From the NCBI GenBank assembly GCA_903934285.1, contig CAIZNN010000063.1:1-59181 (forward strand): 59,181 bases of DNA, in the 5' to 3' direction. A model generated the notes under the pieces. It was not told where the DNA came from. It worked only from the letters and a program-made list of their open reading frames with translations, and made no database searches. Below are positions 4,696 through 40,634 of this stretch, piece by piece; position 1 is the first letter of the stretch; each line of letters opens with the position of its first letter. This DNA is from Akkermansiaceae bacterium. GTDB taxonomy: Bacteria > Verrucomicrobiota > Verrucomicrobiia > Verrucomicrobiales > Akkermansiaceae. The translations under genes were made by a program, and so were the position numbers.

Positions 4696-7600
4696 ATGCT
4701 CACCAAATTATGCTTACTCGCCTTGGTTGCGTCCAATCTGCTGCGCGCTGCCGCAGAATCCCTGCCGCCGCTGATAGATGGCAAGCCGCCGCAAACCTTC
4801 GAGGCGCTGTGGGCCGGGTACGACCCGCGCACAGAACCCTTGCAAACCGAGGTCTTGAAAGAGTGGGAGGAAGACGGGGTGGTGCTGCGCGTCGTCCGCT
4901 ATCAGATCGGGGTGTTCAAGGGCCAAAAAACCATGATGGCCGCCGTCTACGGCTTCCCCAAAGGCGGCCGCCAACTGCCGGGCTTGGTCCAGATCCATGG
5001 CGGCGGGCAGTTCGCAGATTATAAAGCCGCGCTCACCAATGCCAAACGCGGCTATGCCACCATCTCGCTCGCCTGGGCGGGCCGCATCAGTGCCCCCGGA
5101 TACGCAGTCAACAGTGATATAGTCAACCTCTTCATCGAAGGCAAAACCGACGACCCCGCCTACAAGGTGACCACCGACTGGCACGGCTTCAATGGCTATC
5201 ATGCCGTGGAACGCAAGAACCGGGCCCCCGCGGTTTTCCCCGAATGGAAACTCGATGAAGTCGCCGACTCGCCGCGTAACTCGACCTGGTTCATGTGGGA
5301 AATTGGCGCCCGCCGGGCGTTGACCTTTCTGGAACAGCAACCCGAAGTGAACCCGGCGAAGCTCGGCGTTTACGGTCACTCGATGGGCGGCAAGCTCACC
5401 GTCATGACTGCCGCCGCGGACCCCCGGGTGAAAGCCGCCGCCCCATCGTGCGGCGGGGTCAGCGCCCGACCGGCCCCCGGCATCGCTGCCGCGCCAATCG
5501 ATGACGGCATCTCCCTTGCCCAGATCACCTGCCCGATCATCTTCCTCAATCCGGCCAATGATTTCCACGCCCAAATCGATGACCTGCAAACGGCGCTAAC
5601 CGAAATCCACAGCCATGATTGGCGGGTCACCTGCTCGGCCCACGGCAACCACCAGGATCTGGCGGAATTCGAGGTCGCCACCCAACTTTGGTTCGACCAA
5701 TGGCTGCTAGGAACCTTCCAATTTCCCATGACTCCCGCCGCAGCGCTGGAATTGAAGACGGCCAACGCCGTGCCCTGCTTCACGGTCACCCCGGATGCTT
5801 CGAGGGACATTCATGCGGTGGATATCTATTATTCCCAGCAAGGCCGGACGGTGGGAACGAAGGCCGGCATGTTCCAAACGATGAACCGGTTCTGGCATCG
5901 CGCCAAAGCGACCCGCACCGACGCGACCTGGACGGCGGAGTTGCCCTTATTGACCATCGACAAACCCTTGTGGGTCTACGCGAATGTGCTTTATGCCTTG
6001 GACCAACCGGTCACGGGCGCGGGTTATTATTACGGAAAATATACAGCCCAGGCGTTTAATCTTTCGTCGCGTGTGACGATTGTTTCCCCCGCTGAGTTAA
6101 AAGCCGCCGGAGTCCGGCCGACGGCCAAACCATCCCTGGTCATCGAAGCCTTCGACGCCGGGTGGGAAAAAGAATGGTTCACTTATGATATGTCCAAGTG
6201 GGCCCGTTCCACTCACAAGCTCTATGATCCCCAATGGCCGGCACCGGAGGGCGCCCTGCTTGCGCTGGAGGTCCGCAGCACCCGGCCTAACAAACTGGTG
6301 GTGGGCTTGGATGATCACGCCGCCGAGGTGGCGCTCGCGGGCGGCAGCGCGTGGCAACGGGTCGAGCTATCCCCCGCTGAGTTCCGCAGCGCCAAAGGAC
6401 CGCCCCTGCCGGATTGGAAAGGCATCACAACCCTGCGCCTGGGCCCGCAGGAAACCCTCAAGGCCACGGTCGAGGGCTTGGATAAGGAAGTGAAATTCGG
6501 CGCCGAGTGGCAGGGCGCGCGCCCGGAGTTCAAGAACCTGCGGTGGCTCGAGACCAAATCGCTGACCAAGAACGAAGTATCCGAGGTGCCGGCCACGGCT
6601 GTGCCCCTCGATTTCAGTGATCCGGCGCAATCCGTGCAGGCCCCTGCAGCTGCCGCGGGCTTCCCGAGGCGGGATGGGAGTCTGGACGTTCTCCCCGGAT
6701 TCAAAACACCGCCCGTAGGCTATGGCGAAGTGCCATACTGGTGGTGGACGGGTGGCGATCTGGACGCTGACCGGATGATCTGGCAGTTGCAAGAACTGCA
6801 TAAGAAGGGGATCAGCGGGGTCCAGGTCAACTATTCCCATCATGACTCCGGCGGATGGATGACCGATCAGGACGAGCCTGCAATATTCACCGATGAATGG
6901 TGGAAGGTCTATTCAAAGGTGTCGGATGCCTGTGCCAAAATGGACATGGGCATCGGCATGAGCACCTACACCATCGACTGGCCAAACGGCGCACATAACT
7001 TGTTCTATGAACTATTTTACCGCAAGCCCGAGCTCAATGCGATCCAGCTTGAGACAGGAAAGCGACAGCGTGTGAATGGCGGTGCCGTGTTGAAGCTTGA
7101 TATCGCGCCGGGGCAATTTGCCGTGCGGGCATATCCTGTCAAGGAGGGGAAACCTCAGCGTGGCGGCGTTGATCTGACGCCGTTTGCCAAGGATGGAAAA
7201 TTGGATTGGAATGTGCCTGATGGTGAGTGGGAGATCTGGACATTCCACACCACCCGCAAGGCCGGGTCGTTCAATCCACTCATGGCAGGATCGGGAGCGA
7301 CGGTTATCAAGGGATTCTTCCAGCCATTCCAGGACCACAACCGGGGCAACTCAGCCAAAGGCTTGAACTATTTCTTTAACGACGAATTGCAGATAGGCGT
7401 GGGCAAGTTTGCCTGGAACCCTGACTTTGCGGCGGAATTCCGCGCCCGCAAGGGGTATGACCTAATGGAGGTGCTGCCTGCCATGTGGAGCGATATGGGA
7501 GACATGACTCCCAAGGTCAGGATGGATTATGCCGATGTGCGCATGGCTCTGATGGAGGAACGCTATTTCCAGCCGATCTATGCCTGGCATGTCTCACGCG

Positions 7601-10197
7601 GCATGATCTTTGCCGCCGATTCGTGTGGCCGCGGCCGTTCTCCTAACGAGTTCGGCGACTACTTCAGGGCGACCCGCTGGTATTCGGCGCCGGGACACGA
7701 CACCCCCGGCGGCAACGCCGATCTGATCAAGGGCAAGGTGTCGTCCTCTGTCGCCAATCTCTATCAACGGCCCAGGGTTTGGCTCGAGGGATATCACAGC
7801 CTCGGCTGGGGTGCCGCGCCGGAGCGCCTGATGCATGCCACACGCGAGAATTACCTCTATGGATGCACGCTCCTCAACCTGCACGGCTTCTATTACACCA
7901 CCTATGGATCGCACTGGGAGTGGGCGCCGCCTTGCTACCATTTCCGCATGCCATACTGGGCGCACATGGGCGTGTTTCTCGGGTACTTCGACCGGCTTTC
8001 CTACCTGATGAGCCAGGGGAATTTCGCCTGCGATGTCGCAGTGGTCTATCCGGTGGCTCCCTACGAGGCGGAAATGAATGGCGACAAGGCGAGAAATGCC
8101 GCGTTTGAGCTTGGCGAGCGCCTGATGGCTGCAGGGATCAACTTTGAATTCATTGACAACGACTCACTGGCCCGGGCCACTGTGGCAAATGGCCGCCTGG
8201 TTGTGAAGTCCGCGGGCGCATCCTATCAGGCACTGGTGGTTCCGGATATGGACGCCGTCCGCTGGCAGACGATCGAGAAAGCCGCGGCCTTTGCGCAAGC
8301 CGGCGGCAAGGTATATAACGTAGGGGCCATGCCTGCGGCATCTGACCATGCCGGCCGTAATGATCCTGAACTGACCGCGGTGCTGGAGCGCGCGTTCCAG
8401 CCGGATTGCCGCTTCGCAAAGAGCGACGAGGCGGTCACTGCCATCAGCAAGGCGTTCGTGCAGGATGTGCGCGGATTGACGCAGGCTGTTCGCGCGTTGC
8501 ACCGTAAGGCCGGCCCCCGCGACATCTATCTGGTGATGGATGCCAAGCCCGGCGGCGTGGTTGAATTCCGTTGCAAGGGTGCGGTCGATCTATGGGATCC
8601 CTGGTCGGGTAAAACCACGCCTTTGCGCATCCTTGCAGAGACGGCAACCGGCACCCAGGTCGAACTCCCGCTGGAATCGTATGAGGCGCAGGTCGTCGTT
8701 TTCACGCCAGGCCAGAAACATCGCAATCCGCCGCCGAAGGATGAGCGCCCGCTGGTCGAAAAGGCCCTAACTAATGAGTGGAGCGTGGCATTTGTGCCAA
8801 CCATGGACAACACCTATGGCGACTTCCGGATGCCGGTCACAACTGACAACAAGCAGATTGGCCTGGAGGCGCGCCGGTTCGCCTGGGCGCCTGAAACTGA
8901 AACCCTGGCAAAAACCGCCATGCTCCCAACCACGGATGACAGCCAATGGAAAAAGCAACTTCATGGCTACGGCCCGCAGTTTTATGTTCTCGGTCCGCTG
9001 CCTGACGATGTGGATGGGAATGCGCTGGAAGCCGGGCTTTGCAAGCTCAAGGCGGTTGATCTGTCCGTGCCGGTCCCGGCAAATGGGAAGCAATTCACTT
9101 GGCATGCGTATGAATATTCCTGGCGCATGGGTAAGGAAGGCGACCAGGGGCATCAGGGGTTTCATGGACTCAAGCGGGTGGTGACGGACGATTTCCTGTG
9201 TCTTGGGAAATCCGCAGAGGGGCACAACGAAACGCGGTATGAGGCAGAGCCGACCGGCCAGCGCTATTATCTCTGGACCTGCGCAACCGTCGCCGAGGCG
9301 ACGACGGCCACGATCCTTGTCAGTCGCGAGGAACCAGCAGATAAGAGCCATACCTCGAAGGTGATCACCCCTGCAGCCGTCTATCTGAATGGTGCGGCTG
9401 TCGCTGATATTGGCAAGCCGGTGTCGCTCAAGGCGGGTGCCAATCCGCTACTGGTCCGCTATGACCAGGCGGGCCGCGGGCACTTTGTGATGCGCAGAAA
9501 TGATTCTCCGGCAGCCAAGGCGCGCACTCCGCTGTCGATGCGCTGGAATGATGATCCAGGATTGATTCTCTTCGACGTGTCTGGCGGCGCTCAAACCCCT
9601 GAATGGTTCCGCTTTGTATCCGCGCCAGGAACCAACGCGATCACGGTTCATGCGCTGGGAACCGTGCAGGCATGGCTCAATGGTGCGCCGATGAAGGAGA
9701 TGGGCAATGGTCGCTTTGTTGCCGCCAACACATCCGCGCCCGCGGCGGCGGTGGCATTGCGTGTCATTCCGCAACCCGGCAGCAGCGGTGGCGCGGTCAT
9801 ACCCGAACCTGTCATGATCGAAACCGATGGCTCCGGCGTGATGGCGCTAGGTGATTGGTCAAAGGTCGGAATCTTGAACAACTATTCCGGCGGCACCCGC
9901 TACACCACCACCTTGAGTCTAACCAAAGATGAGGCCAAGGGCAATGTCATGCTGGATTTAGGCAGCCTTGTCGCAACCGCCGAGATCCACCTCAACGGCA
10001 ACAAGGTCGCGGTGCTGGTCGCGCCACCATGGAAAACCGACGTCACCGGTTTTCTGAGGGACGGCGAAAACAAACTCGAGGTGCTGGTCTACAATACGCT
10101 TGCCAATCATTATCAGACCATTCCCTCACGCTACAGGGGCAATCCTGTATCCGGATTGTTGGGGCCGGTGCGGCTGCTGTCACCTGATTGGAAATAG
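4696..10197 (+). CDS. Secreted acetyl-esterase / GH106-like rhamnosidase fusion
   Basis: I place the start at the ATG at 4696, which gives a clean signal peptide (MLTKLCLLALVASNLLRAAA) and 1833 residues. Residues about 30-350 form an alpha/beta hydrolase of acetyl-xylan-esterase type: nucleophile Ser229 in GHSMGG, probable Asp289 (PANDF) and His319 (GNHQD). A beta-sandwich-like linker follows. From about residue 668 (PYWWWTGGDLDADRM) the sequence is a GH106-like catalytic region, ending in a GH2-like jelly roll (EIHLNGNKVAVLVAPPW). GH106 enzymes remove terminal alpha-L-rhamnose; the esterase would strip acyl groups from the same glycan. Esterase and GH106 are usually separate genes, so this is a natural fusion or an old merger. 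It heads the rhamnosidase cluster. Confidence 0.75.
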   Translation: MLTKLCLLALVASNLLRAAAESLPPLIDGKPPQTFEALWAGYDPRTEPLQTEVLKEWEEDGVVLRVVRYQIGVFKGQKTMMAAVYGFPKGGRQLPGLVQIHGGGQFADYKAALTNAKRGYATISLAWAGRISAPGYAVNSDIVNLFIEGKTDDPAYKVTTDWHGFNGYHAVERKNRAPAVFPEWKLDEVADSPRNSTWFMWEIGARRALTFLEQQPEVNPAKLGVYGHSMGGKLTVMTAAADPRVKAAAPSCGGVSARPAPGIAAAPIDDGISLAQITCPIIFLNPANDFHAQIDDLQTALTEIHSHDWRVTCSAHGNHQDLAEFEVATQLWFDQWLLGTFQFPMTPAAALELKTANAVPCFTVTPDASRDIHAVDIYYSQQGRTVGTKAGMFQTMNRFWHRAKATRTDATWTAELPLLTIDKPLWVYANVLYALDQPVTGAGYYYGKYTAQAFNLSSRVTIVSPAELKAAGVRPTAKPSLVIEAFDAGWEKEWFTYDMSKWARSTHKLYDPQWPAPEGALLALEVRSTRPNKLVVGLDDHAAEVALAGGSAWQRVELSPAEFRSAKGPPLPDWKGITTLRLGPQETLKATVEGLDKEVKFGAEWQGARPEFKNLRWLETKSLTKNEVSEVPATAVPLDFSDPAQSVQAPAAAAGFPRRDGSLDVLPGFKTPPVGYGEVPYWWWTGGDLDADRMIWQLQELHKKGISGVQVNYSHHDSGGWMTDQDEPAIFTDEWWKVYSKVSDACAKMDMGIGMSTYTIDWPNGAHNLFYELFYRKPELNAIQLETGKRQRVNGGAVLKLDIAPGQFAVRAYPVKEGKPQRGGVDLTPFAKDGKLDWNVPDGEWEIWTFHTTRKAGSFNPLMAGSGATVIKGFFQPFQDHNRGNSAKGLNYFFNDELQIGVGKFAWNPDFAAEFRARKGYDLMEVLPAMWSDMGDMTPKVRMDYADVRMALMEERYFQPIYAWHVSRGMIFAADSCGRGRSPNEFGDYFRATRWYSAPGHDTPGGNADLIKGKVSSSVANLYQRPRVWLEGYHSLGWGAAPERLMHATRENYLYGCTLLNLHGFYYTTYGSHWEWAPPCYHFRMPYWAHMGVFLGYFDRLSYLMSQGNFACDVAVVYPVAPYEAEMNGDKARNAAFELGERLMAAGINFEFIDNDSLARATVANGRLVVKSAGASYQALVVPDMDAVRWQTIEKAAAFAQAGGKVYNVGAMPAASDHAGRNDPELTAVLERAFQPDCRFAKSDEAVTAISKAFVQDVRGLTQAVRALHRKAGPRDIYLVMDAKPGGVVEFRCKGAVDLWDPWSGKTTPLRILAETATGTQVELPLESYEAQVVVFTPGQKHRNPPPKDERPLVEKALTNEWSVAFVPTMDNTYGDFRMPVTTDNKQIGLEARRFAWAPETETLAKTAMLPTTDDSQWKKQLHGYGPQFYVLGPLPDDVDGNALEAGLCKLKAVDLSVPVPANGKQFTWHAYEYSWRMGKEGDQGHQGFHGLKRVVTDDFLCLGKSAEGHNETRYEAEPTGQRYYLWTCATVAEATTATILVSREEPADKSHTSKVITPAAVYLNGAAVADIGKPVSLKAGANPLLVRYDQAGRGHFVMRRNDSPAAKARTPLSMRWNDDPGLILFDVSGGAQTPEWFRFVSAPGTNAITVHALGTVQAWLNGAPMKEMGNGRFVAANTSAPAAAVALRVIPQPGSSGGAVIPEPVMIETDGSGVMALGDWSKVGILNNYSGGTRYTTTLSLTKDEAKGNVMLDLGSLVATAEIHLNGNKVAVLVAPPWKTDVTGFLRDGENKLEVLVYNTLANHYQTIPSRYRGNPVSGLLGPVRLLSPDWK

Positions 10198-10325
10198 CCC
10201 GGGCAGAATGTAAGGATGCCAATTCCCTCCCCTGCGGCACCGGCAAAACGGCAAAACGCCGCCCCGACCGACTTGAATGCCACAATCCAGCAAGAAATCA
10301 AGAAATCCCACGTACAGGACGGGAA

Positions 10326-13300
10326 GTGAACACGCTGCAAAAACTGAACAAGTCGATCCGCTGGTGGAGGGTCGTCGCAAAGATGATGCTACTGTCATCC
10401 CTCACGCTCGCTGCCGCCGCGGAGGTGACGGGCCTGCGCTGCGAATATCGGGGAAACCCCCGCGGGATTGATGTGGCGAAGCCCAGGCTGGGCTGGCTCA
10501 TCGAAGCGAAGGATGCAGGCGACAAGCCGGGCCCCGAACGGGGGGTTACACAACAGGCCTATCAGATACTTGTGGCCAGTTCGCGAGATCTGCTGTCGGG
10601 GGACCAGGGCGATCTGTGGGACAGCGGCAAAGTGACTTCCGACCGCCAAAACCAAATCGAATACGCGGGCAAAGCCTTGGAGTCGCGGTTGCAGTGTTGG
10701 TGGAAGGTCAGGGTGTGGGTAAGCAAAACACAAACCGGAGACGGCGCAACGCCTGACAAGGAACAAGCGTGCCAATGGAGCAAGCCAGCGGAATGGACGA
10801 TGGGGCTTCTTCGTCCGGAGGATTGGCAGGCGAAGTGGATTGGTGCAGTGGCGAAGCCGTCAGTTCCAGACGAGCGTGTTGGGTTTCATGCCGCGGAAGC
10901 AACCCGGGAGGATCAGGAGAAATGGGTGCAAGTGGACCTCGGCAAAAGCGTTCCAGTCGAAAGGATTATTCTGCATCCGTTGAACCACGATAATAAAGTG
11001 GCCTTTGGATTTCCGATCCGATTCCGGATCGATGTCTCGGACGAATCGGACTTCATCAAGGCAATACCCGTCGCAAACCACACAGATGCCGATTATCCTA
11101 ATCCCGGCCTGGTGCCAGTCTCATTCAGTGCCGGCAATGTGACGGCCCGCTATGTCCGCGTGACCGTGACGAAACTGTGGAACAGGCAGCATGGCCCGAT
11201 GCCTTACTGTTTCGCGCTCGGACAACTGGAAGTCATCTCAGACAAAAATAACCTGGCCTTGAAAGTGGCGGTGACAGCCAGGGACAGCGTCGAGACTCTA
11301 GCATGGGGCAAGGCAAATCTGACAGACGGGTTGCGAATTGCCGCGCCCAACCCTGCGGTGCCTGAAGAACCGAAGCCCTCGGCAACGATACAGCTCCGCA
11401 AAGCGTTTGCGCTGGACAAGAAAATCAAACGTGCGGAGGCGTTTATTTGCGGGCTGGGATTTTATGAACTGCGGCTGAATGGTCAGAAAGTGGGTGACCG
11501 CGTGCTCGACCCCGGTTGGACCAATTACCGCAAGACCTGCCTGTACTCGACCTACGATGTCACGGCCATGTTGACGCAGGGCAGCAATGCCATGGGGGTG
11601 ATGCTGGGCAACGGGATGTATCACATCCCGGGCGGCCGCTATACCAAATTCACAGGCTCATTCGGGCCGCCCAAGATGATAATGCAACTCCACGTCGAAT
11701 TTGCCGATGGCACGTCACAGGTGGTGTGCAGCGACGACTCGTGGACGTGGGCCCTAAGCCCCGTGGTTTTTTCCTGCATCTACGGCGGCGAGGACTACGA
11801 TGCGCGCAAGGAACTGCCGGGCTGGGACAAGCCTGGGTTCAGCGCCGACGCGTTCAAGCCGGTGCTGGTGGTGGATGGTCCCGGCGGCGCTCTCGCCTCG
11901 CAGTCCGCGCCGCCGATCAAGGTGATGGCAGAGTATAAGCCGATAAAAATCACCGAGCCCAAGCCCGGCGTCTGGGTCTATGATTTCGGCCAGAATTGCG
12001 CCTCGATGCCGCGACTGACGGTGCAAGGGACGGCCGGCGCCAAGCTGCGCATGACGCCCGGCGAGTTGTTGGGTGCCGACGGGATAGTCTCGCAGGGCAG
12101 TTCCGGTGGACCGGCGTATTATACCTATACGCTCAAAGGCGGCCCCGCCGAATCCTGGTCGCCGCGCTTCTTCTATTATGGGTCGCGCTATCTCCAGCTT
12201 GACAGCTCTGACCATCCACCGGCAGAGGCGCCAAAAATCCTTGGGCTGACATCCCAGTTTGTTCATTCCTCGGCTGCAACCGTGGGAACCTTCACCTGCG
12301 GCAATCCGCTGGTCAACCGGGTTCACGACCTGATTACCGCCGCCATCAAAAGCAATCTCCAAAGCGTGCTGACTGACTGCCCGCATCGCGAGAAACTCGG
12401 CTGGATGGAGTGCACGCATCTGTTGGCCGGCTGCCTGATGTATAATTATGATGTGCCGTCGTTCTATGCCAAGATCGCCAACGACATGGCTGAGGCGCAG
12501 CTCGACAATGGCCTGGTGCCGGATATCGCGCCCGAATTCACCGTCTTTGGCGATGGCTTCCGCGACTCCCCCGAATGGGGCAGCGCCTATATCATCGACC
12601 CGTGGCTGGTCTATCAGATGTATGGCGACTTGACCATTCTTGCCCGACATTACCAGGGAATGAAGCGTTACGCCGGTTATCTTAAAAGCAAATCCAAGGA
12701 TGGCATCATATCGCACGGCCTGAGTGATTGGTATGAAATCACGCCCGGCAGTCCCGATCCGTCGAAATTGACCCCCAAAGGGCTGACCGCGACGGCAATC
12801 TACTATCAGGATCTGGTCATCTTGAAGCAAACCGCCACGTTGCTCAACAAGCCCGATGAGGCGAGCCAATTCGACAAGGATGCCCAAGAGGTCAAGCAAG
12901 CCTTCAACCGGACTTTCTTTCATGCGGAGCAAAACCAGTATGACCGCAACACCCAGACCGCCAACGCCATGCCGCTGGTGCTCGGGTTGGTGCCGGAGGA
13001 CCGGCGTGCGGCGGTGCTGGCGGGGCTGGTCGCGCAGATCCGTGCCGGGGGCAACAAAGTCACGGCTGGAGATATCGGTTTCAACTACCTCATGCGGGCG
13101 TTGTCCGATGGCGGCCAAGGCAGCGTGTTATATGACATGCTGATCCGCGACGACGGACCGGGCTATGCCTACCAACTCAAGATGGGGGCCACCTCCCTAA
13201 CCGAAGCATGGGACACCAACCCCGGCTCGTCGCAAAATCACTGCATGCTCGGCCACATCGAGGAGTGGTTCTATCGCGGCCTCGGCGGCATCGCGTGCGA

Positions 13301-13622
13301 TCCGGCGGGCCCGGGCTTCAAAAAAATCATCATCAAGCCCCAGATGCCGGGTGACCTGGGTGGTGCCAGCGCCTGCTATGAGTCACCGTACGGCCGCATC
13401 GCCAGCAATTGGAAGCGCGAAGGCACCTCATTGACGCTGGATATCACGATTCCGCCCAATACCAGCGCGACCATTCATGTGCCGGCCAGGGAGGCCGCTG
13501 CGGTCACTGAAGGAGGCAAAGCCATGGATCATGCCACGGGCGTGAAGTTCCTGCAAATGGACAATGGCGCGGCGGTAGTTAGCGTGGGCTCGGGAGTCTA
13601 TCGGTTTTGCAGTCAGAAATAA
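10326..13622 (+). CDS. GH78 alpha-L-rhamnosidase with inserted F5/8 type C domain
   Basis: The GTG at 10326 is chosen because AGGA lies 6 nt upstream and the product then starts with a normal signal peptide (residues 1-34, ending LAAAAE). An open frame continues to 10188 but would overlap the previous gene. The 1098-residue protein begins with the GH78 N-terminal beta domain (LRCEYRGNPRGIDVAKPRLG). A discoidin-like module is inserted at about residues 195-335 (WVQVDLGKSVPVERIILHPL), before the second beta domain and the alpha6/alpha6 barrel. The acid motif is D684-C-P-H-R-E689-K, and the base lies in TEAWD (E960). It hydrolyses terminal alpha-L-rhamnose; the insert probably binds glycan. First of three GH78 genes in tandem. 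Confidence 0.85.
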   Translation: MNTLQKLNKSIRWWRVVAKMMLLSSLTLAAAAEVTGLRCEYRGNPRGIDVAKPRLGWLIEAKDAGDKPGPERGVTQQAYQILVASSRDLLSGDQGDLWDSGKVTSDRQNQIEYAGKALESRLQCWWKVRVWVSKTQTGDGATPDKEQACQWSKPAEWTMGLLRPEDWQAKWIGAVAKPSVPDERVGFHAAEATREDQEKWVQVDLGKSVPVERIILHPLNHDNKVAFGFPIRFRIDVSDESDFIKAIPVANHTDADYPNPGLVPVSFSAGNVTARYVRVTVTKLWNRQHGPMPYCFALGQLEVISDKNNLALKVAVTARDSVETLAWGKANLTDGLRIAAPNPAVPEEPKPSATIQLRKAFALDKKIKRAEAFICGLGFYELRLNGQKVGDRVLDPGWTNYRKTCLYSTYDVTAMLTQGSNAMGVMLGNGMYHIPGGRYTKFTGSFGPPKMIMQLHVEFADGTSQVVCSDDSWTWALSPVVFSCIYGGEDYDARKELPGWDKPGFSADAFKPVLVVDGPGGALASQSAPPIKVMAEYKPIKITEPKPGVWVYDFGQNCASMPRLTVQGTAGAKLRMTPGELLGADGIVSQGSSGGPAYYTYTLKGGPAESWSPRFFYYGSRYLQLDSSDHPPAEAPKILGLTSQFVHSSAATVGTFTCGNPLVNRVHDLITAAIKSNLQSVLTDCPHREKLGWMECTHLLAGCLMYNYDVPSFYAKIANDMAEAQLDNGLVPDIAPEFTVFGDGFRDSPEWGSAYIIDPWLVYQMYGDLTILARHYQGMKRYAGYLKSKSKDGIISHGLSDWYEITPGSPDPSKLTPKGLTATAIYYQDLVILKQTATLLNKPDEASQFDKDAQEVKQAFNRTFFHAEQNQYDRNTQTANAMPLVLGLVPEDRRAAVLAGLVAQIRAGGNKVTAGDIGFNYLMRALSDGGQGSVLYDMLIRDDGPGYAYQLKMGATSLTEAWDTNPGSSQNHCMLGHIEEWFYRGLGGIACDPAGPGFKKIIIKPQMPGDLGGASACYESPYGRIASNWKREGTSLTLDITIPPNTSATIHVPAREAAAVTEGGKAMDHATGVKFLQMDNGAAVVSVGSGVYRFCSQK

Positions 13623-13677: not shown

Positions 13678-16467
13678 ATGCGCACCAAACTACGCCCCAG
13701 TCTCCTCGCCTGCCTGCTTGCCCTGCCGGGCACCAGCCCGGCAGCCGACGAACCCGCCACCATCGCAGTGACCCAACTGCGCTGCGAACAACTCGCCGAT
13801 CCCCTCGGCATCGACGTCACCCAACCGCGTTTGAGCTGGCAGCTGGCCTCCGAGCAACGCGGCGCCAGCCAGTCCGCCTACGAGATTGTCGTGGCCAGCA
13901 GCGAGGCAAAGCTCGCGCCAGGTGCCGCCGATTTGTGGGAGTCGGGCAAGGTCGGGTCCGCCGCGTCCATTCACGTGCGCTATGCCGGCAAGCCGCTGAC
14001 CTCGCGCCAGGCGTGTTATTGGAAAGTGCGTGTCTGGGACCAGTCCGGCAGAGTTTCCGCCTGGAGCCCGCGCGCTGCCTGGAGTCTTGGATTGTTGCAA
14101 CCCGACGACTGGCGCGGCCAGTGGATCGGCAACGACGCGGTGGTGGATGCCAAGCCGCCCGGCGTGGCGGACAACGCCCGCCGGTTAGCAGCACGGATGT
14201 TGCGCAAAGACTTCGAGGTGACCAAACCCGTCGCGCGCGCCACCGCCTACCTCAGCGGCCTGGGGCTCTCGGAGCTTTACCTCAACGGCCGGAAAGTCGG
14301 TGACCAGGTGTTGTCTCCGGCGCTGAGTGATTATTCGAAACGCGTGTTTTATGTGACCCACGATGTGACCGCGCAGCTCCAGCGCGGCCCGAACGCGCTC
14401 GGCGTGTGGCTCGGCAATGGCCGCTTTTATGCGCCTCGCACCTCGGATCCCGCGCCCACCATCAGCTACGGGTGCCCGAAATTGTTGCTGCAACTGGAAG
14501 TGGACTACGTCGATGGCACGCGCGACACGATCATCAGCGACGGTTCGTGGAAGCTCACCAGCGACGGCCCGATTCCAGCCAACAACGAATACGACGGCGA
14601 AGACTACGACGCCCGCAAGGAACTGCCGGGCTGGGCCAGCGCCGGGTTCGCCGATGCCGCGTGGGCCCCGGCGCAAGTCGTCGCCGCGCCCGGCGGCAAG
14701 CTGGTGGCACCGATGATCTATCCGATTCGCGTCACCGGCACGCTCAAGCCTGTGGCCATTACCGAGCCGAAGCCTGGGGTGTTCATCTATGATCTCGGCC
14801 AGAACATGGTCGGCTGGTGCCGGCTGCAGGTCAGTGGCCCGGCGGGCACGCGCGTGATGTTGCGCCACGCCGAGATCCTCAACCCCGATGGCACGCTCTC
14901 CCTGGCTAACATCCGCAAGGCCCTCGTCACCGACACCTACACGCTTGCCGGTCACGGCACCGAAACCTACGAGCCGCGCTTCACCTATCATGGTTTCCGC
15001 TATGTGGAAGTCACCGGTTTCCCCGGCCGGCCCACCCTCGCCGCGCTGGAGGGCCGCGTGGTCAACGACGACCTCGGGACTGCCGGCGAGTTCACCTGTT
15101 CGCAGCCGACGATCAACCAAGTTTACCGCAACATCGTCTGGGGCACGCGGGGCAACTACCGCAGCGTCCCGACCGATTGCCCGCAACGCGACGAGCGGCA
15201 GGCATGGCTTGGCGACCGTTCGGTCGAGTCCAGAGGCGAGGTTTACCTGTTTGATACCGCTGCGCTCTACGCCAAGTGGTGCCAAGACATCGCCGACTCC
15301 CAGCGCGCCAACGGCAGCATCTCCGACGTCTGCCCGGCATATTGGCAGTTCTACTCCGACAATGTCACCTGGCCCTGCAGCGTGGTCATCATCCCCGGCA
15401 CCTTGCTCGATCAATTCGGCGACACCGTCACCCTCGCGCGGGTTTACCCGGCCATGGTCAAGTGGGTGGACCTGATGAGCAGCACCGTCAAAGACGGCAT
15501 CACCACCAGCGACAACTACGGCGACTGGTGCGTGCCGCCGGAAGATCCCAAGGCGATCCTTTCCAAGGACCCCGCGCGCTTGACCTCCAAGGCGGTCCTC
15601 GCCACCAGTTATCTGCATCACTGCCTCAAGCTCATGGCGGGCTATGCCCAACTCCTCGAGCAACCGGCCGACGCCCAGCGTTTCACCGCCCTGGCTGCAA
15701 CGCTCAAAACCGCATTCAACGCCAAGCTCTATAACTCCGAAAAAGGCTATTATGACAACGGCACGCAGACTTCCTGCGTGTTGCCGCTGGCCTTTGACAT
15801 GGTGCCGCCGCAAGAACAGCCCAGGGTGTTCGCTCACCTGGTCAAAAAAATCGAAGAGGACTCCCGTGGCCACGTCGGCACCGGCCTCATCGGCGGCCAA
15901 TGGATCAACCGGGTGCTCACTGCCGGCGGCCGGCCCGACCTGGTGTACCGCCTCGCCACCAACACCGATTATCCGAGTTGGGGCTACATGGCGGCCAAAG
16001 GCGCCACCACCATCTGGGAACTCTGGAATGGCGACACCGCCAATCCGGATATGAATTCAGGCAACCACGTCATGCTGGTGGGCGATCTCGTCATCTGGCT
16101 GTATGAGGACCTCGCCGGCATCAAGTCCGACCCGGCACAACCCGGGTTCAAACACATCATCATGAAGCCCCATCCGGTCGGCGACTTGACCTTTGCCCGC
16201 GCCACCCATCGCTCGCCCTATGGCCTGATTGCCAGTGAATGGAAACGGGCCGCCGCAACGTTAGATTGGCAAATCACCGTCCCTCCTAACACCACCGCCA
16301 CCGTCCATGTGCCGACGCCGGACGCCGCCAGCGTCACCGAATCCGGCCAACCCGCCGCCACGGCATCAAACGTGAAATTCCTGCGCCAGGAGGCCGGGGC
16401 CGCCGTCTATGCGGTGGGTGCAGGCACCTATCAATTCCACTCCACGCTGCCCGGAACGGGCCGATAA
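13678..16467 (+). CDS. GH78 alpha-L-rhamnosidase
   Basis: A 929-residue exported rhamnosidase. Signal peptide residues 1-22 (LLACLLALPGTSPAA). Domain order is typical of GH78: N-terminal Ig-like domain (LRCEQLADPLGIDVTQPRLSW), lectin-like beta domain with LYLNGRKVGDQVL, linker beta domain, alpha6/alpha6 barrel, and C-terminal beta domain. The catalytic motif D500-C-P-Q-R-D-E506 contains the expected general acid, and WELWNG contains the base E781. No Shine-Dalgarno sequence is visible; the start follows a C/A-rich leader. It shares length, order and its final ~185 bp with the next gene, so the two are tandem paralogues. Likely co-transcribed with it (30-bp gap). Confidence 0.9.
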   Translation: MRTKLRPSLLACLLALPGTSPAADEPATIAVTQLRCEQLADPLGIDVTQPRLSWQLASEQRGASQSAYEIVVASSEAKLAPGAADLWESGKVGSAASIHVRYAGKPLTSRQACYWKVRVWDQSGRVSAWSPRAAWSLGLLQPDDWRGQWIGNDAVVDAKPPGVADNARRLAARMLRKDFEVTKPVARATAYLSGLGLSELYLNGRKVGDQVLSPALSDYSKRVFYVTHDVTAQLQRGPNALGVWLGNGRFYAPRTSDPAPTISYGCPKLLLQLEVDYVDGTRDTIISDGSWKLTSDGPIPANNEYDGEDYDARKELPGWASAGFADAAWAPAQVVAAPGGKLVAPMIYPIRVTGTLKPVAITEPKPGVFIYDLGQNMVGWCRLQVSGPAGTRVMLRHAEILNPDGTLSLANIRKALVTDTYTLAGHGTETYEPRFTYHGFRYVEVTGFPGRPTLAALEGRVVNDDLGTAGEFTCSQPTINQVYRNIVWGTRGNYRSVPTDCPQRDERQAWLGDRSVESRGEVYLFDTAALYAKWCQDIADSQRANGSISDVCPAYWQFYSDNVTWPCSVVIIPGTLLDQFGDTVTLARVYPAMVKWVDLMSSTVKDGITTSDNYGDWCVPPEDPKAILSKDPARLTSKAVLATSYLHHCLKLMAGYAQLLEQPADAQRFTALAATLKTAFNAKLYNSEKGYYDNGTQTSCVLPLAFDMVPPQEQPRVFAHLVKKIEEDSRGHVGTGLIGGQWINRVLTAGGRPDLVYRLATNTDYPSWGYMAAKGATTIWELWNGDTANPDMNSGNHVMLVGDLVIWLYEDLAGIKSDPAQPGFKHIIMKPHPVGDLTFARATHRSPYGLIASEWKRAAATLDWQITVPPNTTATVHVPTPDAASVTESGQPAATASNVKFLRQEAGAAVYAVGAGTYQFHSTLPGTGR
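16264..16449 (+). repeat. Near-identical tract shared by two rhamnosidase genes, copy 1
   Basis: This 3' segment aligns without gaps to 19084-19269, exactly 2820 bp away, with only about seven differences. The rest of the two genes differs at most codons. The pattern points to gene conversion or selection on the C-terminal beta domain. Confidence 0.9.
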
Positions 16468-16497
16468 CCTCCCCCCGCCCCTGCCGCAACCCATCCC

Positions 16498-19287
16498 ATG
16501 CAAACCCGTTTCAATCCCCACCGCCCTCTGCGTTTCGCCCTTGCCTGCCTCCTGGGGTTGCTGACACCCGCAACCGCGGCCGCCGCGCCGCAGGCCGAAC
16601 TGGCGAACCTGCGCTGCGAATACCGCATCGATCCGCGCGGCATCGACGTGGCCCAGCCGCGCCTGAGTTGGCTCATCACCTCCACCCAGCGCGGGGCGCG
16701 GCAAACCGCCTATCAGGTGCTGGTGGCCTCGACCCCGGAATTGCTAGGCAATAACCAGGGGGATCTCTGGGACAGCGGCAAGGTCGCATCTGACCAGCAA
16801 AATCAGATAGTATATGCCGGCCAGCCGCCCGGCTCGGGCAGGCTGTGTCACTGGAAGGTTCGCAGCTGGGACCAAGACGGCAAACCCGGCGCATGGAGCC
16901 AGCCGGCAAGTTGGTCGATGGGCTTGCTAACACCAACAGACTGGCAGGCGAAGTGGATCGGGCTGGACTTGAAGGATGCTGGCGCTGATCCGCATGATTC
17001 GGAAAAACGGCGATTGCCCGCGCGCTATCTGCGCCGGGAATTTGTCGCCGACAAACTTGTCCGGCGGGCCACGGCCTATGTCTGCGGACTGGGCTGCTTC
17101 GAGCTCCACATCAACGGCGCGAAAGTCGGTGACCATGTGATGGATCCGGTCCTGACCGAATACAACAAGCGGGCTTGTTATGTGGCCTTTGACGTCACGC
17201 AAAACATCGCAATGGGCCGCAACGCGATTGGGGTGGTGCTTGGCAACGGTCGGTTCTTTGCGCCGCGCATCAAGAACCCGGCCTCATACAAGGATTACGG
17301 GGCCCCCATGCTCATCGCCCAGATCGCAGTCGAATACGACGACGGCTCCCATGCCCAGTGGCTCAGTGACGGCCAGTGGCGCGCCACCTCCGACGGACCG
17401 ATCACCGCCAACAATGAATACGACGGCGAGGAATATGATGCCAGAAAGGAAATGCCGGGCTGGGATGCGGTTGGCTTTGATCAATCCAAGTGGCGTGACG
17501 CTTGCGTGCTGGATGGACCGAAAGGCAAGCTGGTGGCCCAGATGATGGAACCTAACAAGGTTGTGGATGTCCTCAAGCCGGTTGCACTGGCGGAACCCAA
17601 GCCGGGGGTCTGGATTGTGGACTTTGGCCAGGCATTCTACGGACAAGTGCGCATCAAGCTCAGTGGTCCGGCAGGAACCGAGATCCGGATGACTGCGGCC
17701 TACAGCCTGCAGACTGACGGAACCCTCAAGATCGTGGACAATCGGAATGCCAATTGCACGGATATCTACATTCTCAAGGGACAGGGCGAGGAGACGTGGT
17801 GCCCGTCGTTAAAAGGGCAGGGGATGCGGCGGATACAACTCACCGGTTGGCCGGGCAAGCCCACGGCGGAGCAATTCGAAGGACGGGTTGTCAGCACGGA
17901 CAATTCCACTGCGGGCACGTTCGAGTGCTCCAATCCGCTGATCAACCGGATCCACCGCAACATCTTCTGGGGCGCGCGCATGTACAAGCGGCAGGGCGTG
18001 CCGCTGGATCCCGACCGGGATGAGCGGCAAGGCTGGCTCGGTGATCCGGCGAAGGATGCGGAGAGTGATGCCTTCAATTTCAACGTGGCCGCGTTCTATT
18101 CCAAATGGCTGGGCGATCTCAGGCTGGATCAACGTGATGACGGGAGCATCGGAGACATCTCGCCCAACTTCTGGGATTGGGGCAGCGGCGTGCTGTGGCC
18201 CAGCGTGGTTACCATCATCCCTGAATGGCTGTACGATTTCTATGGCGACCGTCGCGCGGTGGCAGACAACTATGCAGCCATCAAGAAATGGATGGCGTTC
18301 CATCAGCAGCGTCTTGAACCCGATTTCACCGTAAGCAAGGACAGCTATGGTGATTGGTGCGACGCGTCAACGATGGATCAAGGCGGCAAGGCAGAGGGCA
18401 ACACAGCCATGCCCCTGCTCTCCACGGCCTACTATTTCAACAACTGCCGGATTGCGGCGCGGCTCGCCGGGTTGTTAGGAAAGCCGGACGAAGCGAAGGA
18501 ATTCCTCCTACTCGGGGAGAAGGTCAAGGATGGATTCAATCGGAAATTCCTCGATCCCGTTGCCGCAACCTATGCCGGTGACACGCAGTGCGCTTATGTT
18601 GTGGCGTTGAAATTCGGCCTGGTTCCGCCGGGCATCCGGGATGCCGTGGTTGGACGCTTCATCGACAATATTCTGGTGAAGAACAACGGGCATCTGACCG
18701 TCGGATTGATCGGCATGCAATGGCTGATGCAGACATTGACGGAAATCGGCCGGCCCGATGTCGCCTATACCATTGCCACCCAGACGACGCGGCCGAGTTG
18801 GGGCTATATGATCAGCAAGGATGCCACCACGATTTGGGAGCGCTGGGATTGCGATACCCAGGGGAGCGGCATGAACAGCGAGGCTCTTCTGATACTTTCG
18901 GGCAATCTTGACGCCTGGTTCTACCAAACCCTGGCGGGACTCAATTATGATCCGGCGCAACCTGGCTTCAAGCACGTCATCCTCAAACCCCGGCCGCTGG
19001 GCGATCTCACCTGGGCCAAGGCTCATCATGATTCCTTGTACGGCCGCATCGCCAGCGCGTGGCAGCGCACCGCCACAACCTTTGATTGGCAAATCACCGT
19101 CCCTCCTAACACCACCGCCAGCGTCCATGTGCCGACGCCGGACGCCGCCAGCGTCACCGAATCCGGCCAGCCCGCCGCCACGGCATCAAACGTGAAATTC
19201 CTGCGCCAGGAGGCCGGGGCCGCCGTCTATGCGGTGGGTGCGGGCACTTACCGGTTCCACTCCACGCTGCCGGCTTCGCCTAAATAG
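16498..19287 (+). CDS. GH78-family alpha-L-rhamnosidase, altered acid motif
   Basis: A 929-residue paralogue of the preceding gene, exported by a signal peptide (FALACLLGLLTPATAAAA). It has the same domain series: LRCEYRIDPRGIDVAQPRLS at the N-terminus, LHINGAKVGDHVM in the lectin-like domain, then the alpha6/alpha6 barrel. At the acid motif it reads L503-D-P-D-R-D-E509 where the neighbour reads D-C-P-Q-R-D-E: the general acid Glu is retained but the first Asp, normally contacting the rhamnose ring, is Leu. The base Glu in WERWD (E781) is present. Activity or specificity may therefore differ. No Shine-Dalgarno sequence; the leader is C/A-rich. Its 3' tract is nearly identical to that of its neighbour. 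Confidence 0.87.
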   Translation: MQTRFNPHRPLRFALACLLGLLTPATAAAAPQAELANLRCEYRIDPRGIDVAQPRLSWLITSTQRGARQTAYQVLVASTPELLGNNQGDLWDSGKVASDQQNQIVYAGQPPGSGRLCHWKVRSWDQDGKPGAWSQPASWSMGLLTPTDWQAKWIGLDLKDAGADPHDSEKRRLPARYLRREFVADKLVRRATAYVCGLGCFELHINGAKVGDHVMDPVLTEYNKRACYVAFDVTQNIAMGRNAIGVVLGNGRFFAPRIKNPASYKDYGAPMLIAQIAVEYDDGSHAQWLSDGQWRATSDGPITANNEYDGEEYDARKEMPGWDAVGFDQSKWRDACVLDGPKGKLVAQMMEPNKVVDVLKPVALAEPKPGVWIVDFGQAFYGQVRIKLSGPAGTEIRMTAAYSLQTDGTLKIVDNRNANCTDIYILKGQGEETWCPSLKGQGMRRIQLTGWPGKPTAEQFEGRVVSTDNSTAGTFECSNPLINRIHRNIFWGARMYKRQGVPLDPDRDERQGWLGDPAKDAESDAFNFNVAAFYSKWLGDLRLDQRDDGSIGDISPNFWDWGSGVLWPSVVTIIPEWLYDFYGDRRAVADNYAAIKKWMAFHQQRLEPDFTVSKDSYGDWCDASTMDQGGKAEGNTAMPLLSTAYYFNNCRIAARLAGLLGKPDEAKEFLLLGEKVKDGFNRKFLDPVAATYAGDTQCAYVVALKFGLVPPGIRDAVVGRFIDNILVKNNGHLTVGLIGMQWLMQTLTEIGRPDVAYTIATQTTRPSWGYMISKDATTIWERWDCDTQGSGMNSEALLILSGNLDAWFYQTLAGLNYDPAQPGFKHVILKPRPLGDLTWAKAHHDSLYGRIASAWQRTATTFDWQITVPPNTTASVHVPTPDAASVTESGQPAATASNVKFLRQEAGAAVYAVGAGTYRFHSTLPASPK
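19084..19269 (+). repeat. Near-identical tract shared by two rhamnosidase genes, copy 2
   Basis: Partner of 16264-16449; encodes the WQITVPPNTTA...VHVPTPDAAS C-terminal segment. Identity drops sharply just upstream, in codons for the preceding barrel region, and again just before the stop codon. Confidence 0.9.
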
Positions 19288-19306: not shown

Positions 19307-19834
19307 ATGCATCAACCCAATCTCCGTCCACTCAGCGTCGGCCTGCTCGTCGGCCTGCTGGCGATTGCCGTCAGCGCAATGGGGGCCGTGCCTGCTACCG
19401 CCAAACTGGCTAACTTGCGTTGCGAATACCTCACCAATCCTTTGGGAATCGACGCGCCTACGCCGCGGCTTTCCTGGCAGATCGACGCGCAGGGAAAACA
19501 AGACGTCAAACAAGTGGCCTATCACATTCAGGTCGCCTCGAGTGAAACGCTCTTGAACCAAGCGAAAGGCGATCTCTGGGATAGTGGAAAAGTCACCAGC
19601 GACCAGAGCACGCAGATCACGTATGCCGGCAAGCCACTCACCTCGCGCATGTGCTGCTATTGGCGGACGCAAATCTGGACCTCCGACGGTGGGATCCAGA
19701 GCGCTACGGCGATGTGGAGCATGGGACTCCCTAATCCCGACGACTGGCACGCCCAATGGATTGGTCGCCCCAACAATCCCGCGGTCAAAGACGACATGTC
19801 CCTGCCCGCCCATTATCTTGAAAGCTCCCAGTGA
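19307..19834 (+). pseudogene. Fourth GH78 rhamnosidase, 5' fragment only
   Basis: This frame starts with a signal peptide (VGLLVGLLAIAVSAMG) and continues as the GH78 N-terminal domain (LANLRCEYLTNPLGIDAPTP), closely matching the three upstream genes. It reaches the point where they read LPARYLRREF, here LPAHYL, and then runs out of homology and stops after four more residues (175 codons in total, against 929). The catalytic barrel is missing, so this is a truncated remnant of a fourth tandem paralogue. Confidence 0.85.
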
Positions 19835-20075
19835 TCTCACCGCCCATTTGGAACTCAGCACTGCAGCGCTGGTCAAAGTTTGGATGAACGGAACCCTGCT
19901 CATGGCCAAGACCAGCGAGGCGGATAAGCAGGTGTACGAGGTAAAGCTCCGCGCAGGCGATAATCCGCTGATGATCAAGGCCATTCAGATGAAGCAGGAT
20001 TCTCTGGATCTTTCCGTGCAGTTGCGCGCAACCGATGGCGGTGAACTGCGCCGCGTTTCAGCACGCGCGCGATGA
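19825..20075 (+). pseudogene. 3' fragment of an unrelated hydrolase-like gene
   Basis: In a frame shifted from the GH78 fragment, about 80 codons (DLTAHLELSTAALVKVWMNG ... VKLRAGDNPLMIKAIQ) read like the C-terminal jelly-roll or beta-sandwich found at the end of glycosidases and esterases, in which a W-M-N-G turn is followed by K-L-R-A-G-x-N-x-L-x-x-K. No start or catalytic domain exists. It is joined directly to the truncated GH78 copy. Confidence 0.6.
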
Positions 20076-20102
20076 TCCGCTGCGACCACACAGAGCATTA
20101 AC

Positions 20103-20669
20103 ATGACAACGGAACAACTAACAGGGAATCGTGTGAGGACGCTCTGCTTTTTATCAGTCACCAGGAACGAGTGGCTCAGCACCGGCCTGCTCGCCGGGCT
20201 CCTCGCCTTGCCGTGCGTCAGCCCGGCGGCCGACGAGCTCGCTACCACGTTTGGTTCGCCTCCTTTGGCGTCTGCGCCAGCGGTTTATCCGGACGGTCGA
20301 CCGAGCGCCCGGTTGCGCCTCGATGCGACCGATCAAGGCCGCATCCTCAAACACGGCGACGGGCCGAAGCAATGCGACCTACTCGGCGCCCGGGAAGCGT
20401 TGATCTTTAAAGAAGGCGGAACCTATCACCTGTTTTACGATGGGGCCGGACCAAAGGGCTGGCTGGCCTGCCTGGCCACGAGTAAGGACCTCGAAACCTG
20501 GCAAAAAAAAGGTCCGGTCCTTGAATTCGGCAAGGCGGGTGAGATGGATTCCGCCGCCGCATGTGCTCCCTGGGTTTTCCACGATGGGAAGGAATGGCAT
20601 ATGTTCTATCTGGGGACGCAGCGAGCTTCAGGAGCACCGGACCGAATCCCCTCGACCCCGTATGTAACG
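20103..20669 (+). pseudogene. GH43/GH130-like beta-propeller glycosidase fragment
   Basis: The translation has a signal-peptide-like segment (LLAGLLALPCVSPAADE) resembling that of the GH78 gene at 13678. It then shows beta-propeller features of GH43/GH32/GH130-type enzymes: AREALIFKEGGTYHLFYDG, a TSKDLETWQK blade, and PWVFHDGKEWHMFYLG. Only about two or three blades remain of the usual five. The frame then passes without a stop into the start of a GH106-like gene at 20670. Probably a dead remnant, although the frame itself is open. Confidence 0.65.
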
Positions 20670-21590
20670 ATGAAGGCGACGACCTTGCCCCTTCTACTCT
20701 CCGTGCTGTGCGCGGCATCGCTGCCACTGCAGGCGGCCCCGGATTCGCTGGTGGAGAATTTCATGACTCCGCCAGCCGCCGCCCGGCCGGGGGTTTATTG
20801 GTATTTCATGGATGGCAATCTCAACGGCAATGAGATGACCGCCGATCTGGAATCCATGAAAACCGCCGGCCTCGGCAACCTGGTTTTCCTGGAGGTCGAT
20901 GTCGAGGTGCCGGCCGGGCCGGTTAAGTTCATGAGCGAGCCGTGGCAGGAGTTGTTCGCCAAGGCGGTCCATGCGGCGGAACGGTTAGGGCTGGATATAT
21001 CGCTGGGCACCGGCCCGGGTTGGTGTGGCAGCGGCGGGCCCTGGGTCAAGCCGGAGCAATCGATGCAGCATTTGGTCTTCAGCACGGTGGCGGTCGAGGG
21101 GCCGGTCCTCTATGAGGCGGTGCTGCCGGTGCCGGAGCAGCGCAAAACGATCTGGCAACCTGGGGAAACAACAACAAGCTCCAGCTTTCGATCGAACCGT
21201 ATGACATGAACCCCACCGCAGACCTGGATCTCGGCGCGGTGGCTGATGTGCCGATGGCGAAATTCCGGAGCGTAGGTTATGGGTTTGACGTCAGTTGATC
21301 CAAAATGGGGCGGACCGGAGCAGGTCACTTTCGAGGCCTTGCAAGATTGGACGCAGCGGCCGGAGCCGGGTATTAAGTACTACTCAGGCATCGCCATCTA
21401 TCGAAAGCCCTTCGAGTTCAAGCCGCCGACCGGAACGCGGCTGTTCCTGGACCTGGGTGTCGTCAACGACATGGCGCGCGTTCGCCTCAACGGCAAGAAC
21501 CTCGGGGTGGTCTGGTGTGCGCCGTGGCGGGTGGAAATCACCGCAGCTGTCAAAGCCGGCGGTAATGAGCTTGAGATCGGGGTGGGGTAA
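20670..21590 (+). pseudogene. GH106-like rhamnosidase with large internal deletion
   Basis: From the internal ATG at 20670 there is a complete signal peptide (TLPLLLSVLCAASLPLQA) and a typical GH106 N-terminus (PGVYWYFMDGNLNGNEMTAD ... GTGPGWCGSGGPWV). Homology breaks near 21165. The C-terminal part continues in other frames: NKLQLSIEPYDMNPT at about 21168-21294, then PKWGGPEQVTFEALQDWTQR and LNGKNLGVVWCAPWRVEI up to 21590. GH106 enzymes are usually around 1000 residues; at least half, including the catalytic barrel, is deleted and two frameshifts or stops remain. Not functional. Confidence 0.8.
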
Positions 21591-39263: not shown

Positions 39264-40634
39264 CTACCCGACCTGAGGCGGGGCGAAGCCGTCGCGGTAG
39301 GTGCGGCGGACAAGGGTTTGAGTGGCTTCCGGGCTGTTGGTGAACGCCAGCTTCGACTTGTCCCAGAGCAATTCCTGGCCGGGGAAACGCGAGGCCTTGA
39401 CGGCGAGCAAGGTGGCCTCGGTCATGCGCACGGCGTCCTTGAACGGGGTGCGCAATTCGGTTTTTTTGCCGAGGCAATTGTCCACCCAGGCGTGCCAATG
39501 ATTGAGCGGCGGAAATGCCGGCAAGCCGGGCAGGCGCAAGCCTTCTTCCACCTTGCCGTCGCGCCAGATCCTGGGCCGGCCATCGAGTTCGATGGCCAGC
39601 GTGCCCCCCTCACACACCACCACGCTCATGATGTCCTCGGTGAGCGCCGCGGGTATCCGCAGTTGCTCGGCCGTGGGCAGTTGGCTCGAACTGTAGTAAT
39701 GGATCGGAAACGTCTTGCCGGCAAACTTGTCGGAGTTGACCTCATAGACAAGGGTCGAGCGGCACGGCGTGACGTGGAACATCTTGTTAGTGGTTTGCGG
39801 GCAATCGGTTTTAACCGCCACCGGAGACATCAATTCGTCGTAGCTGAAGAACACCACATCCAGCAGGTGGCAGCCAAAATCGCCCTGGCCGTTGCTGCCG
39901 AAGTCCCACCAGCTCCGCCATTTCGCCGGGGCCAGCCCGTCATAATAGGGCATTTTGGCGCAGGGGCCGAGCCACAGGTCATAGTCGAGGGAGGCCGGCA
40001 CCAGCGGGTTTTCCTTGAGCGCCATGCCGTAGTTGACAGGCTGGTTGGGCACCGGGCCGCCGAGCCAGGCATAGGCTGCGATGGCTTTTCCGAGTTGGCC
40101 TTGGCGGAGGATTTCCACTGCGGCGCGGCGTCCGGCGCCAGCCATGCGTTGGTTGCCGAGTTGGGTGACGAGTTGTGGTCTGGCCTTGAGCGCGCGCTCG
40201 ATCATGACCAACTCCTCGAGCTGATGGACTAACGGTTTTTGGCCGTAGATATGTTTGTGGTGGTCCATCGCGGTGAGCAGGATCGGCGCGTGCGAATGGT
40301 CCGGCACGGCCACAATCACCGCGTCAAACGCGTCGGCGTGCTTGGCGAAGGCCTCGCGGTAATCGCGGCAGGTGAACGCTTTGGGATGATCCTGGGCGGC
40401 TTGCGCCAGATAGTCCGCATCGACGTCGCACAGCCCGACAATCTCGGCCATGGGATGGCCGGCGACTTGGAGGCGGTCGCTGCGACCGATGGTTCCGACC
40501 ACGCCAATGGACAGGACGCGGAGTTTGTCATTGGGCGAGGCGGCGCGGGCGCGCGGGAGGCCCAGCGCGCTGAGACCAAGGCCTGCGGCAGCGGTGGATT
40601 GGAGGAAACGACGGCGACTCTGGATGGCGTGCAT
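39264..40634 (-). CDS. Tat-exported Gfo/Idh/MocA oxidoreductase
   Basis: A 456-residue protein with a twin-arginine signal (SRRRFLQSTAAAGLGLSALG). The Rossmann fold follows (VLSIGVVGTIGRSDRL, where the usual GxGxxG is loosened), with LCDVDADY as the acidic end of beta-2, AVIVAVPDHSHAPI, and the EKPLAH-equivalent QKPLVHQ. The C-terminal half is the GFO/IDH/MocA alpha/beta domain (KWRSWWDFGSNGQGDFGCHL). Such secreted homologues are abundant in Verrucomicrobia and Planctomycetes and are presumed NAD(P)-dependent sugar dehydrogenases or glycosidases. In QKPLVHQ the usual Glu of EKP is Gln, as in its paralogue at 55741-57165. Substrate unknown. Confidence 0.85.
   Translation of the reverse strand: MHAIQSRRRFLQSTAAAGLGLSALGLPRARAASPNDKLRVLSIGVVGTIGRSDRLQVAGHPMAEIVGLCDVDADYLAQAAQDHPKAFTCRDYREAFAKHADAFDAVIVAVPDHSHAPILLTAMDHHKHIYGQKPLVHQLEELVMIERALKARPQLVTQLGNQRMAGAGRRAAVEILRQGQLGKAIAAYAWLGGPVPNQPVNYGMALKENPLVPASLDYDLWLGPCAKMPYYDGLAPAKWRSWWDFGSNGQGDFGCHLLDVVFFSYDELMSPVAVKTDCPQTTNKMFHVTPCRSTLVYEVNSDKFAGKTFPIHYYSSSQLPTAEQLRIPAALTEDIMSVVVCEGGTLAIELDGRPRIWRDGKVEEGLRLPGLPAFPPLNHWHAWVDNCLGKKTELRTPFKDAVRMTEATLLAVKASRFPGQELLWDKSKLAFTNSPEATQTLVRRTYRDGFAPPQVG

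Follow-up and report, generated by a model that had tools for sequence, protein, structure and literature searches.

The window, by which we mean the whole 59,181-nucleotide stretch of DNA that was analysed, contains two adjacent genes in the same orientation, here called A and B, that are diverged over most of their length and nearly identical at their 3' ends, and the question is how such diverged neighbours came to share one tail. Each carries all five rhamnosidase domains (PF17389, PF08531, PF05592, PF17390 and PF25788; Pfam, above curated cut-offs), and the best match to B among solved structures is PDB 6i60, named an alpha-rhamnosidase. Both are predicted to be GH78 alpha-L-rhamnosidases, the CAZy number being assigned from these Pfam families. 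The initial annotation had reported about seven differences among 186 sites at an offset of 2820 bp; the count is exactly seven (positions 16301, 16350, 16422, 16428, 16431, 16433 and 16434), and the 2820 bp offset is both the start-to-start and the stop-to-stop distance, because the two reading frames are each 929 codons long. Coordinates of the genes, the tract and the neighbouring features are given in Table 1.

Table 1. Features of the rhamnosidase gene array and of the exchanged segment (positions in the window).
Feature	Coordinates	Strand	Basis
Third tandem GH78 gene, 1144 aa, also with an F5/8 type C domain, outside the island	10188..13622	+	ORF, Pfam, tail comparison with A
Gene A, GH78-type alpha-L-rhamnosidase (predicted), 929 aa, most likely tract donor	13678..16467	+	ORF, five Pfam rhamnosidase domains, orthologue G086:C197
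5' breakpoint interval of the exchange	16226..16250 in A (19046-19070 in B)	+	Change point, 651 orthologue-informative sites
Tract copy in A, near-identical 3' end	16264..16449	+	7/186 differences from 19084-19269
Tract core, 158 bp with 2 differences and a longest identical stretch of 71 bp (16351-16421)	16264..16421	+	Site comparison
Gene B, GH78-type alpha-L-rhamnosidase (predicted), 929 aa, most likely tract recipient	16498..19287	+	ORF, Pfam, PDB 6i60, orthologues L052/L053
Tract copy in B, near-identical 3' end	19084..19269	+	7/186 differences from 16264-16449
Truncated GH78 head, Ig_Rha78A_N only, remnant 3' of B	19307..19834	+	ORF, Pfam

Outside the tract, A and B are 0.40-0.73 identical per 30-codon window, so that high identity does not extend along the whole genes, in agreement with the sharp island first described; in a codon alignment the last three windows, which comprise the tract and the diverged last codons, score 0.88, 0.99 and 0.73. 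In a segment scan of the whole genes the A/B island reaches 103 bits, and the maximum among 1815 column shuffles of same-genome pairs is 23.6 bits. Unbroken identity on the 3' side stops at 16451, 13 bp ahead of the stop codon, and five of the seven tract differences are clustered in 16422-16434. Searched with the tract, the draft genome (4.8 Mb in 282 contigs) yielded only the A and B copies and no third near-identical one, and with just two copies there a dispersed repeat was rejected; a wider query also found a 70% match in a third gene, C244.

The two genes belong to a larger array. The tail of the third tandem GH78 gene is only 0.58 identical in nucleotides to that of A. Immediately behind B (19307-20100), a GH78 head comprising a leader and an Ig_Rha78A_N domain ends after about 175 aa and is followed by a second ORF fragment, and together these look like a decayed array member. 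The next ORF (20103-21209) looks like a composite, in which a leader resembling that of gene A (69 bp, 77%; 13694-13762 compared with 20179-20247) precedes an N-terminal piece of a GH106 rhamnosidase. Elsewhere in the window there are two GFO_IDH_MocA oxidoreductase genes (39277-40565 and 55781-57069) that are 76% identical over 1.3 kb and lie 16.5 kb apart, and a short head-to-tail repeat array of caaaggcg-like units (1109-1356).

Orthologues of A and B in related genomes reveal the separate histories of the two parts of B. The orthologue of A (G086:C197, 84% amino acid identity) has an A-type tail. Two orthologues of B carry another tail: L052, taken to be G075:C26 (79-80% amino acid identity, from a Lake Pavin MAG), and L053, taken to be G019:C249 (76-77%). 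No B orthologue was seen in G086, where the best match to B is G086:C197 itself, at 50%. Trees were built from codons 467-845 (core) and 858-922 (tail), each with 19 genes chosen from the surveyed loci. In the core tree A groups with G086 (support 100/100) and B with G075:C26 and G019:C249 (100/99), and a grouping of A with B is rejected (p-AU 3.7e-7). In the tail tree A and B are joined (92/93) and then G086 (86/77), and placing B with its orthologues is rejected (p-AU 7e-54); the joining branches are moderately supported, with a bootstrap that had not settled, and a grouping of A with G086 that leaves out B is not rejected (p 0.298). Tract and flanks thus have conflicting phylogenies.

The position of the switch was mapped with 651 informative sites, at which A and G086 share one base and the two orthologues of B share a different one (0 mapping errors in the verified map). 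Of these sites, 635 lie at or before 16226, and there B matches its orthologues 530 times, A 55 times and neither of them 50 times; from 16250 onwards it is A-like at 16 of 16. The change point between 16226 and 16250 has a z of 11.6, compared with at most 5.2 in 2000 permutations. The island as originally delimited is confirmed, but its start at 16264 is not, as by these sites the exchanged segment begins 14-38 bp further upstream. Because the core of B groups with its orthologues, its tail groups with the A lineage, and the sites switch at 16226-16250, A is the better-supported donor and B the recipient, and most likely the tail of A was copied onto B. A keeps the tail of its lineage, as in G086, and the 3' flanks of A and B differ, so that the flanks were not exchanged. 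Lost similarity to the B orthologues would by itself be weak evidence, because the tail evolves fast between those two orthologues as well (L052 and L053 are 0.84 identical in nucleotides in the catalytic domain and 0.69 in the tail, compared with 0.85 and 0.65 for B and L052); it is the match of B's tail to the A lineage that carries the argument for direction.

Could selection, and not copying, have kept the two tails alike? The GH78 tail is relatively conserved, such that in pairs with catalytic nucleotide identity below 0.5 the tail is on average 0.09-0.14 more identical (0.09 being the mean over 3950 between-genome pairs, and 0.14 that over 425 same-genome non-tandem pairs), but purifying constraint on the C-terminal segment is a scarcely credible account of the tract. 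Where A and B encode the same residue, the codons are identical at 49 of 50 positions in the tract (codons 863-914) and at only 54 of 122 in the catalytic domain, a comparison made with 21 alignment rows minus L065 and G026C34, whose reading ran past the gene. Third positions agree between A and B at 51/52 sites in codons 863-914 and at 342/811 in codons 30-846, the corresponding values for A and its G086 orthologue being 35/52 and 592/811; B and G075:C26 agree at 26/52 in the tract codons, and thus both orthologous pairs vary freely where A and B do not. Within the tract A resembles B far more than it resembles its own orthologue, and from these third-position identities the conversion is younger than the split between A and G086. 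The initial annotation had also considered an ancestral tract under strong constraint, which does not agree with B's two nearest orthologues having a different tail and B's tail lying with the A lineage. Copying in the reverse direction, from B to A, or from an unsampled third gene into both, would accommodate several differences between A and B that are derived in A relative to G086, as well as the tail-tree topology with A and G086 but without B noted above. We consider either unlikely, as the tail of A groups with its own orthologue and that of B does not, and a third donor is further disfavoured by the lack of any third near-identical copy in the draft genome.

The process that very probably produced the tract is gene conversion by ectopic, non-reciprocal homologous recombination between two diverged GH78 genes in direct repeat, from the 3' end of A into B. 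Approximately 200 bp of A's 3' end would have been copied over the matching end of B, replacing the end of the C-terminal beta-sandwich domain and the tail, a segment that starts near codon 850-858 and ends near codon 924, presumably through RecA-type recombination between neighbouring or sister copies. With the genes lying as direct repeats at a spacing of 2820 bp, the simplest route is conversion between the neighbours or between sister chromosomes. Recent conversion or unequal recombination had been proposed at the outset, and of these conversion better explains the tract in the window. Unequal crossing-over between A and B in a single step, or recent duplication of a tail together with its flank, has precedents in relatives, in that G029:C907 follows the first of two tandem G019:C50 genes to about codon 847 and the second thereafter, and a 539-bp alignment (86%) of two GH78 gene ends in G086 extends past the stop codon. 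Here, however, one crossover would bring the 3' flank of A behind the tail of B, and instead the unbroken identity stops 13 bp before the stop codon and the sequence behind B differs from that behind A; two switch points are therefore needed, conversion is preferred, and we regard crossover or duplication as very unlikely. An assembly artefact, in which B was wrongly joined to the tail of an A allele or strain variant, is conceivable in a draft, metagenome-like assembly of 282 contigs. It is nevertheless highly improbable, as there are 7 differences between the tails in 186 sites, five of them with B in the G086 state, and the 3' flanks of the two copies are distinct, where one would expect a strain variant of A to run on into the flank of A. 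The A/B tract is a real, well-polarised and ordinary case of ectopic gene conversion.

The differences that remain between the two copies are unevenly spread. Within the exchanged segment there are 2 in the 158 bp of the centre and 8 in the 44 bp of the edges (16250-16263 and 16422-16451; p 9e-5), and at four of the five clustered 3' sites B matches G086 and A does not. A broader edge count (2/153 compared with 22/84, p 2.4e-9) was dropped, as it took in sites that possibly lie outside the exchanged segment. Because of this uneven spread, one event from the present-day A does not explain every site; there could have been two rounds of conversion, the donor could have changed since, or the last codons could share a family-wide likeness.

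Related exchanges at GH78 gene ends are found in relatives of this bacterium. From its start, contig G029:C907 (reversed) is 93-99% identical to G019:C50 for 1.8 kb, after which a stretch of approximately 0.4 kb leading up to its GH78 gene finds no match. The gene then tracks the first of the two tandem G019:C50 genes at 82-95% per 300-bp chunk. At codons 847-849 its match shifts to the tail of the second, apart from a single reverse site at 852, and continues for approximately 2.2 kb at 88-95% to the end of the C50 contig. This arrangement is what unequal crossing-over would be expected to produce, as a fusion in G029 or, in reverse, a duplication in G019. The 5' edges of the exchanges lie close together, at codons 850-858 for A/B, 847-849 for G029/G019, 850/851 for the G086 genes on contigs C171 and C197, and 846/847 for a tandem pair in G076, with the island of the G075:C265 tandem pair beginning later, at codon 868. 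A clustered 5' breakpoint is a hypothesis at this stage, four cases being few. In these copies the breakpoint stretch encodes a G-x-I-A/V-S-x-W motif. No peak of nucleotide conservation was found there as a reason for a recurrent breakpoint, windows around codons 847-858 scoring 0.55-0.59 when other parts of the C-terminal region score 0.64 and 0.66.

The wider occurrence of such islands was examined in a partial survey of 111 GH78 genes, at loci hand-picked from the results of similarity searches. The segment scan covered the 6017 pairs that share 250 codons or more and have a background no higher than 0.8, and its best islands reach 144, 113, 103 (A/B) and 96 bits, with same-genome column shuffles at or below 23.6. 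The centres of the 249 islands above 24 bits fall in codons 812-929 (101), codons 1-215 (101), the catalytic domain (38) and between these (9); protein conservation may account for many of the weaker islands. All 249 were tested for synonymous excess. Eight have an excess at p<1e-6, six of them C-terminal, two N-terminal and none between, and at p<1e-4 there are 27 (10 C-terminal, 15 N-terminal, 2 catalytic). Three of these eight strongest islands are in tandem pairs (of which there were 12), three in other pairs within one genome (593) and two in between-genome pairs (5412), with a Fisher p of 1.2e-4 for tandem against other same-genome pairs. These survey p values are optimistic, since segments were chosen for identity, pairs are non-independent and the survey is not exhaustive.

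A second test compared synonymous identity in the tail with that in the catalytic domain, using the 104 GH78 domains that had 200 or more core codons and 45 or more tail codons (5268 pairs). Three pairs pass Bonferroni correction: A/B, G086 C171/C197, and G019:C50 with G029:C907. Among nine tandem pairs, four have a tail that is more identical than the catalytic domain by over 0.25, and five do not, including the third GH78 gene with A. Islands in relatives comprise the G086 C171/C197 pair, whose alignment extends beyond the stop and reaches the beginning of the following ORF on C171, and the tandem pairs of G076 C238, G075 C265 and G075 C528, the last at the 5' end.

Several other arrangements of GH78 ends were noted in the surveyed genomes. 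A small ORF in G075 (L220, G075:C16:44426-44563) joins a signal-peptide-like leader to a 46-aa match to a GH78 tail, with the core missing, and further isolated heads and tails are present in that genome (12.6 Mb, with 84 matches to B); the isolated heads and tails, at eight places, are taken as remnants. At L058 (AM_bin-2963, 6001-11984) there is a tandem pair in reverse order, B-like and then A-like, in which the A-like gene has a B-like C domain. This pair is suggestive of an older exchange in the other direction; the corresponding clade is absent from the tail tree, yet is not rejected (p 0.155).

A plausible if tentative proposal is that the 5' and 3' ends of GH78 genes are shared recombination modules in this verrucomicrobial genus, whose rhamnosidase families are expanded, and are repeatedly homogenised or swapped between neighbours as the cores stay diverged, with a preferred 5' switch point for the 3' end at about codons 847-858 and with hybrid enzymes, in which a core is paired with a new end, arising by both conversion and unequal crossing-over. 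If this pattern is true, it would offer polysaccharide-degrading bacteria a route to remodel large enzyme families. The A/B tract itself provides a cleanly polarised example, from an uncultured bacterium, of conversion between tandem glycosidase genes that have diverged, and it illustrates that whole-gene GH78 trees can mix two histories. Among the papers listed in literature searches, none was by its title on this case, and no report of GH78 end exchange was seen there.

Compared with known GH78 alpha-L-rhamnosidases, as represented by the five Pfam families and 6i60, A and B share the domain set and no difference in domain order was seen; what differs is that here a tail has been swapped between paralogues. 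Ectopic gene conversion between paralogues occurs in bacterial multigene families, and the A/B tract resembles such cases in its short island of near-identity, its identity at the codon level, the incongruent trees, and the adjacency of donor and recipient. It departs from them in that only the 3' end of the glycosidase genes is involved, that end islands recur in related genomes, and that in four cases the 5' edges lie within about 12 codons of each other.
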